A DNA stretch of 64,000 bases, from positions 124,001 to 188,000 of the forward strand of contig NZ_BMXI01000011.1 of the NCBI RefSeq assembly GCF_014651675.1. Direction: 5' to 3'. A program made the position numbers and the translations under genes. Below are positions 32,290 through 58,547 of this stretch, in pieces. The notes under the pieces were generated by a model that was not told the DNA's origin, did not search any database, and saw only the letters and a list, made by a program, of their open reading frames with translations. Within the stretch, counting starts at the first letter, position 1; each line of letters begins with the position of its first letter. Source of the DNA: Roseibacillus persicicus (GTDB lineage Bacteria; Verrucomicrobiota; Verrucomicrobiia; Verrucomicrobiales; Akkermansiaceae).

Positions 32290-33570
32290 ATGAGCGAAGC
32301 ATTGTTTTTTCAGGGGGGCGAGGTCGCCGCGGAGGATGGTCCATTGATGGCGGCAGATGTCTGGGTGGTTGATGGAGTCGTTAAGGCGGTGGGGCAGATG
32401 TTGACCGTTCCAGAGGGTGCGCGTGTGATAGATTGCACGGGGAAGGTGCTCATGCCCGCGATGTTCGATGCCCATGTCCACTTTCGCGAGCCGGGTCAGA
32501 CTCACAAGGAGGACATTGCCAATGGGACCGAAGCTGCCATCAACGGCGGGATCACCGGGGTGGTGATGATGCCGAACACTAATCCCGCTATCGACTCGGC
32601 GGCAGTGGTGAAAATGGTTTTGGACAAGGCCAAGGCGGTTTCGCGCATTCCGGTCTACACCTCGGGCTGCATTACTAAAGGTCGCGAAGGCAAGGAGTTG
32701 GCTGCTATCGATGGCATGCGCGAAGCGGGGGTGCTGATGTTGACCGATGATGGCGATGCGGTGCCGGACTCGAATCTGTTGCTGCAGGCGATGCGCTATG
32801 CGAAAGAGTTCGGAATGTTCTTCGCGAGCCATTGCGAGGACCCCGCGCTCGCTGGGCCGAGGGCGATGAATGAGGGCAAGAAGAGCTACGAGCTCGGCAT
32901 CGATGGCACGCCTGCGATTGCGGAAGAGCTTTTCATTGATCGCGATATTCGCATCGCCCATGCGGCGGGAGCCCATGTTCATATTCAGCACGTTTCCTCA
33001 CGCTTGGGGATGGAGACCATTCGGTGGTGGAAGGAGATGGGGGCGAAGGTCACTTGCGAGGTCGCGCCGCATCACCTGATGTTTAATGAGGAGGACATCG
33101 CAGACTACGACACTAATTATAAGATGAATCCACCTCTGCGTCTGGCTTCGGACAATGCGGCTCTTTTGCAGGGGTTGAAGGATGGGGTTTTCGACCTCAT
33201 CGCGACGGACCACGCTCCGCATACCGAGTTCGAGAAGTCGCAGGATTTTGTGAGCGCCCCCAATGGATTGAGCGGGTTGGATACCGCGTTGGTTTCTTTG
33301 TTCGACCGCTTCGTCGCTGCCGGGGAATTGACTTGGGATGTCATCGTGAAGCGATACTCCGCGGAGCCCCGTCGCATGATGAATTTGGAGCCGGTTCCAA
33401 TTGAAGAAGGCAAGCGCGCCGAGCTTCTGGTTTTTGATCCGAATGGAGAGACGACGTTCAGCCGTGAGTTTATGAAGTCCAAGAGCGTGAATACCCCGTT
33501 CTTTAACAAGACTTTGAAAGGCCGCATCGACCTTCTGCTAGCTGGCGAAGAATTGCTGTTAGAGCGGTAG
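32290..33570 (+). CDS. pyrC: Dihydroorotase (class I)
   Basis: A 426-residue zinc amidohydrolase that cyclises carbamoyl-aspartate to dihydroorotate in pyrimidine synthesis. It shows [21 protein letters not shown] (His-x-His metal site), [46 protein letters not shown] and [13 protein letters not shown], all typical of class I enzymes. Full length. Its stop codon TAG (33568-33570) lies inside the first bases of the downstream repeat array (GGTAGGGCTG). Confidence 0.97.
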
Positions 33571-34850
33571 GGCTGTTTTGACAAAACCGCAGCGAATGAT
33601 GGGGGCCCCTACCGGAGCATGGACATTCCTGTCCATGAGCAGAACCCCGGTGAGTCAGCGCTTGCGTCTAAACGACTACGCGGGACTGACGGAATGACGT
33701 GGACGGACCGTCCCAGGGACAGAAATGTCCCTGCTCCGACGGTAGGGCTGTTTTGATGAAACAGCCGCGAATGATGGGGGAAGGTCCCAGGGCTCTCGCC
33801 CTTTGTTCGTTTATAGAGCCTTCGACTATCTCCGACCACTCGCGGACCTTTTGTCAAAAGGACCTTACTGGAGCATGGACATTCCTGTCCATGTGCAGAG
33901 CCCCAGTGAGTCAGCGCTTGCGTCCAAACGACTACGCGGGACTGACGGAATGACGTGGACGGACCGTCCCAGGGACAGAAATGTCCCTGCTCCGACGGTA
34001 GGGCTGTTTTGATAAAGCAGCCGCGAATGATGGGGGCTGGTCCCTAGGCTCTCGCCCTTCGTTCGTTTATAGATCCTTCGATTTTCTCAGACCACTCGCG
34101 GACCTTTTGTCAAAAGGACCTTACTGGAGCATGGACATTCCTGTCCATGTGCAGAGCCCCGGTGAGTCAGCGCTTGCGTCCAAACGACTACGCGGGATTG
34201 ACGGAATGACGTGGACGGACCGTCCCAGGGACAGAAATGTCCCTGCTCCGACGGTAGGGTTGTTTTGAAAAAACAGCCGCGAATGATGGGGGCAGGCCCC
34301 TGGGCTCTCGCTCTTTGTTTGCTTGTCGATTTTTTGGCAGCCCCAGACCACTCGCGGTCCTTTTGTCAAAAGGACCCTACCGGAGCATGGACATTCTTGT
34401 CCATGAGCAGAACCCCGGTGAGTCAGAGTCCTCGTCAGAACTTCGAGGCGGGATTGACGGAATGACGTGGACGGACCGTCCCAGGGACAGAAATGTCCCT
34501 GCTCCGACGGTAAGGCTGCTTTGATAAAGCAGCCGCGAATGATGGGGGAAGGTCCTTGGGCTCTCGCCTTTCGTGCGCTCATTGATGTTTCGGTTATCTC
34601 CGACCACTCGGGGTCCTTTTATCAAAAGGGCCCTACCGATGCGCATCGATGGTGCGGTGTGGTCTTTGGGAGTTTGGATGTCTTCGCTCCTCGATTCGTA
34701 GTGACCATCTGGTCGAGCAAGCAAGCTTTGCTCTTCCCGTGGGGGATAAAGAACGAAGCCATCCACCCCACAAAGCGGTAGCAAGCGGCGCGCACTCCAA
34801 AAAGACCCATGGCCGGACAGCGAGTGCCCTCACTCGTCTTGGCGAACCGT
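33566..34850. repeat. Tandem repeat array 1: REPIN-like modules a and b, ending in module c
   Basis: Fills the gap between the convergent genes pyrC and polX. A 256-bp unit recurs: GGAGCATGGAC starts at 33614, 33870, 34126 and 34382, exactly 256 bp apart. Each unit is module b (about 127 bp) plus module a (about 128 bp, starting GGTAGGG at 33741, 33997, 34253, 34509). Module a is bounded by GGTAGGGCTGTTTTG..CAGCC on the left and an inverted GGTCCTTTTGTCAAAAGGACC..TACC on the right. Module b is bounded by GGAGCATGGACATTCCTG and the inverted CAGGGACAGAAATGTCCCTG. A deleted copy of module a (33566-33613) opens the array, and a 213-bp segment of module c (34638-34850) closes it. Because 256 is not a multiple of three, no frame runs through. 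Confidence 0.95.
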
Positions 34851-34855
34851 CCTCT

Positions 34856-57106: not shown

Positions 57107-58547
57107 GGAGCATGGACATTCCTGTCCATGAGCAGAGCTCCGGGGAGTTAGAACTTACTTTGAGACTCTTCGGTTCTTACGATTCGATGTGGACGGACCG
57201 TCCTAGGGACAGAAATGTCCCAGCTCCAGCAGGTAGGGCTGTTTTGCTAAAACAGCCGCGAATGTTGTGGGAAGGTCTTTGAGCTAACGCCTTTCGTCCG
57301 CGGGAGAGCTGTTCGAGCACGCCAGAACTCTCGCGGTCCTTTTGTCAAAAGGTCCCTACCGGCGTGGGTCGAGGGTTGTTGAGTGGGGCTTGATTTTGGT
57401 TGGGGGTCTTCACTCTTCGATTCGAGGTGGCTGCGAGGTTGAGCAAGCAAGCTTTGCTCTTCCCGTGGGGGTGAAAGAACGAAGCCATCCACCCCAGAGC
57501 GGCAGCAAGCGGCGCGCACTCCAGAAGGACCCTTGGCCGGACCGCGAGTGCCCCCACTCGCCCCACCGAATCGTCTCGTCCAAGCAATGAAATGTCGTTG
57601 AGCCAATCGAGAGACGTCACGCGGTAGGGCTGTTTTGCTAAAACAGCCGCGAATGTTGTGGGAAGGTCTTTGAGCTAACGCCTTTCGTCCGCGGGAGAGC
57701 TGTTCGAGCACGCCAGAACTCTCGCGGTCCTTTTGTCAAAGGGTCCCTACCGGCGTGGGTCGAGGGTTGTTGAGTGGGGCTTGAGGTGATTGGGCATCTT
57801 CACTCTTTGCTTCGAGGTGGCTGCGAAGTTGAGCAAGCAAGCTTTGCTCTTCCCGTGGGGGTGAAAGAACAAAGTCATCCACCCCAGAGCGGCAGCAAGC
57901 GGCGCGCACTCCAGAAGGATCCTTGGCCGGACCGCGAGTGCCCTCACTCGCCCCACCGAATCGTCTCGTCCAAGCAATCAGATTTCGTAGAGCCAATCGA
58001 GAGACGTCCCGCGGTAGGGCTGTTTCGCCGAAACAGCCGCGAATGTTCGGGGAAGGTCCTTGAGCTAACGCCCTTCGTCCGCGGGAGAGCTGTCCGAGCA
58101 CGCCAGAACTCTCGCGGTCCTTTTATCAAAAGGACCCTACCGGTGTGGGTCGAGGGTGGTTGGGTGGGGCTTGAGTTGGTTGGGGGTCTTCACTCTTTGC
58201 ATCGAGGTGGCCGCGAGGTTGAGCAAGCAAGCTTTGCTCTTCCCGGGTGGGTGAAAGAACGAAGTCATCCATTCCAAAGCGGCAGCAAGCGGCGCGCACT
58301 CCAGAAGGATCCTTGGCCGGACCGCGAGTGCCCTCACTCGCCCCACCGAATCGTCTCGTCCAAGTAATCAGATGTCGTTGAGCCAATCGAGAGACGATTA
58401 GCGGTAGGGCTGTTTTGCCAAAACAGCCGCGAATGTTGGGGGAAGGTCCTTGAGCTAACGCCCTTCGTCGGCGGGAGAGCTGTTCGAGCACGGCAGAACT
58501 CTCGCGGTCCTTTTATCAAAAGGACCCTACCGGCGTGCCTCGAGGGC
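57107..58547. repeat. Tandem repeat array 2: module b, then 3.5 copies of a+c
   Basis: Fills the gap between convergent abcF and moxR. It opens with one module b (57107-57227, GGAGCATGGACATTCCTG to GGGACAGAAATGTCCC). Then a unit of 390-391 bp recurs: GGTAGGGCTG begins at 57232, 57623, 58013 and 58403. Each unit is module a (129 bp) plus module c (about 261 bp). Module c contains GAGCAAGCAAGCTTTGCTC, CGAGTG-CCCT-CACTCG and AGCGGCGCGCACTCC. The fourth unit stops 16 bp into module c. The GGCTGTTTYG..CRAAACAGCC arm changes T-A to C-G in the third copy, keeping the stem. Open frames inside are repeats of the same DNA, not genes. Confidence 0.95.

Follow-up and report, generated by a model that had tools for sequence, protein, structure and literature searches.

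Two tandem arrays of Roseibacillus persicicus as probable composites of three REPIN families, presumably mobilised by RAYT transposases

Within the 64-kb window analysed here (the whole stretch of DNA, G000:C11:124001-188000, from a genome of 5.28 Mb in 92 contigs), Tandem Repeats Finder reported two tandem arrays and no others, and the second of them (array 2, 57107-58547) raises the question of what its modules are and how it relates to array 1. Array 2 occupies the gap between converging ABC-F-like and MoxR-like genes. As the original prediction stated, module b opens it and a unit of about 390 bp follows, which we found as 3.4 copies of a/c material (57232-58546, period 390, 93% matches). 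The unit itself had been read as a+c. However, across the genome, module c consists of an X end and a Y end, so that "a+c" is an X-a-Y array read out of phase and the true unit is X-a-Y, 374 bp in length. The module order is b-a-Y, X-a-Y, X-a-Y, X-a. REPINs, to which these modules are assigned below, are non-autonomous elements with REP hairpins at either end.

57107-57228, + strand: b element, a GGAG-tagged REPIN (GGAGCA-hairpin ... hairpin-GCTCC) with covarying arms, whose family flanks the RAYT at C2:129241
57232-57360, + strand: a element, copy 1, a GTAG-tagged REPIN (head-to-head dimer)
57361-57522, + strand: Y part of an X..Y element, copy 1 (hairpin GAGCAAGCAAGCTTTGCTC, then AGAGCGGCAGCAAGC..GCACTCC)
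57539-57912, + strand: complete X-a-Y unit 1 (X 57539-57622, a 57623-57751, Y 57752-57912)
57929-58302, + strand: complete X-a-Y unit 2 (X 57929-58012, a 58013-58141, Y 58142-58302)
58319-58547, + strand: partial unit 3, truncated beside the MoxR gene (X 58319-58402, a 58403-58531, then the first ~15 bases of Y)

Array 1 (33563-34851) is made of the same parts in the order a'-(b-a)4-Y-X and likewise fills a gap between converging genes, here dihydroorotase-like and PolX-like. Tandem Repeats Finder resolved its b+a portion as 4.0 copies at 33607-34638 (period 256, 89% matches), followed by c once; the single diverged c that had been predicted to close the array at 34638-34850 was recovered at 34638-34851.

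33563-33613, + strand: internally deleted a, whose GGTAG foot gives a TAG stop codon (33568-33570) to the upstream dihydroorotase-like gene
33614-34637, + strand: four copies of the 256-bp b-a unit
34638-34851, + strand: Y (34638-34798), then X (34815-34850), the end of array 1

The dihydroorotase-like gene terminates at the TAG within the GTAG foot of the deleted a (33566-33570), which suggests that insertion reset the 3' end of this gene. CRISPR arrays were ruled out because the units (256-390 bp) are too long and unique spacers are absent, and integron cassettes because, by inspection, the palindromes enclose no gene. No Rfam match to a known structured RNA was obtained in the 30-62 kb portion of the window. 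An assembly artefact was also rejected, since the copies differ by 5-15%, which is not expected of collapse or duplication errors.

The similarity between the two arrays is homology and not a matter of a few shared palindromes. After removal of both hairpins, the modules of the two arrays still shared 68% of their interior positions in a, 71% in b, and 75% in the Y part of c, a level reached by none of 500 shuffles; the claim of shared modules thus withstood the check that likeness might be confined to the palindromes. That array 1 was copied directly into array 2 is ruled out by the identity of their copies (73% for a, 76% for b, and 68% for c) together with mostly closer relatives elsewhere. 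Only the c of array 1 finds its best match (69%) in array 2, while a, b, and the c of array 2 have closer relatives at other loci: array 2 is matched best by one on contig C14 (82% over 1220 bp), and the a and b modules of array 1 match best on C5, C6, and C2. The notion that the arrays are different shuffles of the same three parts therefore holds, but not as a private relation between two loci, as they are 2 of about 40 such loci in the genome. In the same way, the proposed copying or recombination between loci is borne out elsewhere, with b copies 99.3% identical in two arrays 3 kb apart on C5 and arrays on C2 and C6 94% identical, and not between arrays 1 and 2.

This census rests on loci fetched piecewise and is not exhaustive. 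A blastn-type search of the genome with a b+a+c query returned 108 places, profiles run over 31 fetched regions matched a 63 times, b 48 times, and c 52 times, and further X, Y, and c-type loci came from pattern searches. All of the roughly 40 module-bearing loci were judged intergenic, and a, b, and c are each dispersed, mainly intergenic, and multi-copy, as REPINs are. Genome-wide, the modules occur either as single pieces or in one of the orders (b a)n, X-a-Y, and (X-a-Y)n.

The original prediction attached neither a REPIN identity nor a RAYT link to the modules; both came from the anatomy of the hairpins and the flanks of RAYT genes. Modules a and b have REPIN anatomy, each being a short element bounded by two inverted REP hairpins. 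Module a starts with GGTAGGG and ends with CCCTACC, and at both ends a GTAG foot directly precedes a perfect stem-loop (9-bp stem, 3-nt loop), as in the GTAG REP superfamily; its two arms differ in stem (GGCTGTTTT versus GGTCCTTTT). Module b starts with GGAGCA and a hairpin of the GGGACA..TGTCCC type and closes with the inverse. Double-sided changes were found in 5 of 9 stem pairs of the a arms and 3 of 8 of the b arms, and in both families pairing exceeded that of all 1000 shuffles; such covariation indicates selection on the hairpins. The feet are well conserved (GGTAGGG in 96 of 103 a arms, GGAGCA in 81 of 89 b arms), and conservation in a and b reaches 1.5 to 1.9 bits at the outer 20 to 30 positions versus 0.6 to 1.3 in mid-element. 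The GTAG foot is absent from b and c, whose feet are GGAG or GGAC, and these two were thus not filed as GTAG REPs.

Module c corresponds to an X..Y element with GGAC/GGAG-tagged ends and a hairpin near each end. Homology of X, the right half of "c", always begins at GGACC-GCGAGTG..CACTCGC, and that of Y, the left half, always ends at AAAGCGGCAGCAAGC..GCACTCC. Single loci begin with X and end with Y, spanning 214 to 321 bp without a and 366 to 374 bp with one a; at locus L023, a-b-a-b-a lies inside an X..Y of 907 bp. The interiors of X..Y elements with and without a do not align, which counts against nesting; that a inserted into X..Y, rather than being enclosed by assembly from the sides, is therefore only the presumed course. 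Amplification of b-a units took place next to a, and at one locus it lies within X..Y. Y holds two hairpins, the inner of which covaries by eye (GAGC/GCTC, GGGC/GCCC, GGAC/GTCC). The X and Y arms are unlike in sequence, and inverted hairpins of the REPIN kind are found in the Y-Y forms (L014, L175); such symmetrical Y..Y elements form a tandem on C9 and inverted pairs on both C3 and C6. The C9 example (L175, C9:2286-3383) is a c-class Y..Y REPIN in three tandem copies with a period of about 380 bp.

Fourteen matches to Y1_Tnp (PF01797) are present in the genome. One of them, at C2:129241 (hereafter b-RAYT), has b copies on both sides in the order b b RAYT b b b and encodes an intact HUH/Tyr protein (motifs NHVH and YIRKNP) that scores above the Pfam cut-off; 20 homologues retain NHVH and Y176 with few or no exceptions. 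Its score against NCBIfam REP_Tyr_transpos (NF047646) is 53 bits, below the cut-off of 80, yet this is still its best family. A profile of 20 proteins of this type placed the solved TnpA-REP 4ER8 first (E 1.8e-7), and 4ER8 was also the best match of the predicted structure, a model of moderate quality (pLDDT 77; E 1.1e-5, TM about 0.5). Around homologues in the family (30 loci), 86 of the 110 flanking hairpins carried a GGAG foot, 12 a GGGG foot, and none a GTAG foot, compared with 9 hairpins in total in 52 control windows; GGAG-foot hairpins lay on both sides at 20 of the 30 loci. A 54%-identical RAYT with b-type hairpins on either side is found in relative G014.

The c family is linked to a second class. 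The right arm of c matches repeats flanking RAYTs of the C8 class, of which the genome has a single member (C8:221213) that passes the NCBIfam RAYT model (87.8 bits) and has no REPs beside its gene. The Y-type REP is present in 42 of 289 genomes of the order, and c-type REPs lie 75 to 520 bp from C8-class RAYTs in 11 of these (G003, G015, G055, G066, G114, G116, G121, G131, G149, G171, and G204), on both sides in at least six; further homologues of this class have GGAGTGCGG-hairpins. For a, the analysis found no RAYT. GTAG REPs built like it are present in Coraliomargarita sp. SDUM461004 and in five relatives, with no RAYT beside a-type REPs in any of these genomes (within 1.5 kb on either side, or up to 8 kb in Coraliomargarita locus L086). 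At L086 (51-480), a GTAG REPIN with unlike arms belongs to a tandem pair of 296 bp, and the repeated unit seems to take in the 3' end of the neighbouring gene, possibly the first step in the birth of an array. Two other RAYT-like genes of the R. persicicus genome carry hairpins of their own: the gene at C12:147347 (L054, 3461-4176) has GGTGGACGTCTCGTCCACC on both sides, and that at C10:208501 (L060, 4615-4633) has a GTAG-type CTGAGGCGTCTCGCCTCAG on one side.

Copies inside an array are homogenised. After orientation correction, identity within versus between arrays was 0.888 versus 0.779 for a, 0.923 versus 0.677 for b, and 0.903 versus 0.564 for c, and none of 1000 label shuffles reproduced the excess (run with locus L033 reverse-complemented). 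The choice offered by the original prediction, concerted evolution or ongoing exchange, was answered by both patterns: within-array copies are closer for all three modules, yet 13 of the 48 a copies and 7 of the 36 b copies are nearest to a copy in a different array. Many but not all arrays form single groups in trees in which the L033 rows were mis-oriented. Divergence across arrays, orientation-corrected, was correlated between a and b (Mantel r 0.44, p about 0.001) and not between a and c (r 0.08, p 0.29), and the junctions are near constant at nearly all loci (a|b 0 nt, b|a 3 nt), which together suggest that a-b partly moves as one unit.

The two arrays of the window are probably composite, BIME-like arrays of three REPIN families that became nested and were amplified in place, presumably after mobilisation by RAYT (TnpA-REP) enzymes. 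Each family (a, b, and X..Y) would have spread singly into intergenic DNA beside stop codons. The a element would then have come to sit within X..Y and b to adjoin the 3' foot of a, probably through a preference of REP insertion for existing REP ends, after which slippage or unequal recombination would have multiplied the composite in tandem where it stood, into (b-a)n or (X-a-Y)n. Finally, crossing-over in the shared a may have joined the two kinds, so that array 2 came to read b-a-Y-X-a-Y... and array 1 (b-a)4-Y-X. Since each array holds both neighbour kinds of a, recombination through a would be the simplest reading of their orders.

Alternatively, the arrays could be regulatory features maintained by the host, with hairpins serving as terminators, mRNA 3'-end stabilisers, or gyrase sites in the gaps of converging genes, copy number under selection, and mobility as history only. 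Both window arrays do occupy convergent gaps, many arrays in the genome begin 0 to 100 bp past a stop codon, and of the 40 loci classed with a crude gene call, 15 lie between convergent genes, 22 between genes in tandem, and 3 between divergent ones. The same placement is nevertheless expected of insertion that merely avoids damage, and conservation falls on the transposase-type feet and stems, with the interiors varying freely. In addition, a genome-wide DNA search detected no modules in three congeners (G001-G003), so that the arrays are no conserved regulatory feature, and we regard this explanation as unlikely. The 1.5 kb that follow the ABC-F orthologue in these congeners were likewise free of modules; the MoxR neighbour is also missing there, and as synteny is not conserved the site does not provide an empty/occupied pair. 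In one of them (G001 C66, L158), the ABC-F orthologue is followed by an ORF resembling another IS200-type Y1 transposase, with different repeats and no array. That the arrays are plain satellite-like repeats, spread by homologous recombination or segmental duplication alone, is very improbable: strong homogenisation within arrays, the near-identical C5 arrays, and the apparent inclusion of a gene end in the L086 unit would fit, but isolated b, X..Y, and a copies with sharp ends occur at unrelated sites, in several genomes the matching repeats lie on the flanks of their cognate RAYTs, and stem covariation requires selection on the hairpins.

Composite REPIN tandem arrays and RAYT enzymes are known already. 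In Pseudomonas fluorescens SBW25, tandem arrays alternate REP families GI and GIII at fixed spacings of 112 and 72 bp, some arrays are near-identical at distant sites, ordered clusters include flanking sequence, and each REP family also clusters by its own RAYT (Bertels & Rainey 2011, PMC3116915). The arrays described here resemble these clusters as composite tandem arrays of REP families, but involve three families rather than two, with a within X..Y and b-a amplified beside a; the elements are also longer (122-374 bp), and a GTAG family is mixed with GGAG-tagged ones. Opitutus terrae, a member of the phylum, is rich in GTAG REPs (Di Nocera et al. 2013, PMC3733652). Module a shares with GTAG REPs, of which there are 24 families, and with BIMEs (PMC3733652; for E. 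coli BIMEs, PMC8266576) the GTAG foot, 9-bp stem, 3-nt loop, head-to-head dimer, and tandem dimer clusters, but its two arms have different stems. Similarly, b-RAYT and C8-class RAYTs resemble TnpA-REP/RAYT subclasses in their HUH and Tyr motifs and in flanking repeats that make them REPtrons (Quentin et al. 2018, PMC6006769). The feet reported for RAYTs are GT[AG]G and, in class 3, CnGA (PMC6006769), unlike the GGAG/GGAC feet of b and c. The string GGAG is missing from the main texts of the REP/RAYT papers searched, supplements and subscription papers aside, and a literature search for RAYTs with GGAG returned nothing relevant; three-family nesting and the GGAG tag would thus appear to be undescribed in the accessible REP/RAYT literature.

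The growth of bacterial REP clusters is poorly understood, and this genome displays candidate intermediates side by side, namely, bare X..Y, X-a-Y, X-a-b-a-b-a-Y, (b-a)n, (X-a-Y)n, and chimeras joined at a. Tentatively, a large RAYT clade of the Verrucomicrobiota type might use a GGAG foot instead of GTAG as its cleavage guide, and in the present genome REPINs of three transposase classes might have fused around a shared GTAG core to amplify and spread jointly. A GGAG-tagged clade would be a natural test of the guide rule established for GTAG enzymes, in which the foot sets the cleavage dinucleotide. A different type of array was seen beside the RAYT of a relative (L104, 1127-2310), where GGAG hairpins form direct repeats in runs of 7 and 4 to 5, spaced by 38 and 26 bp.
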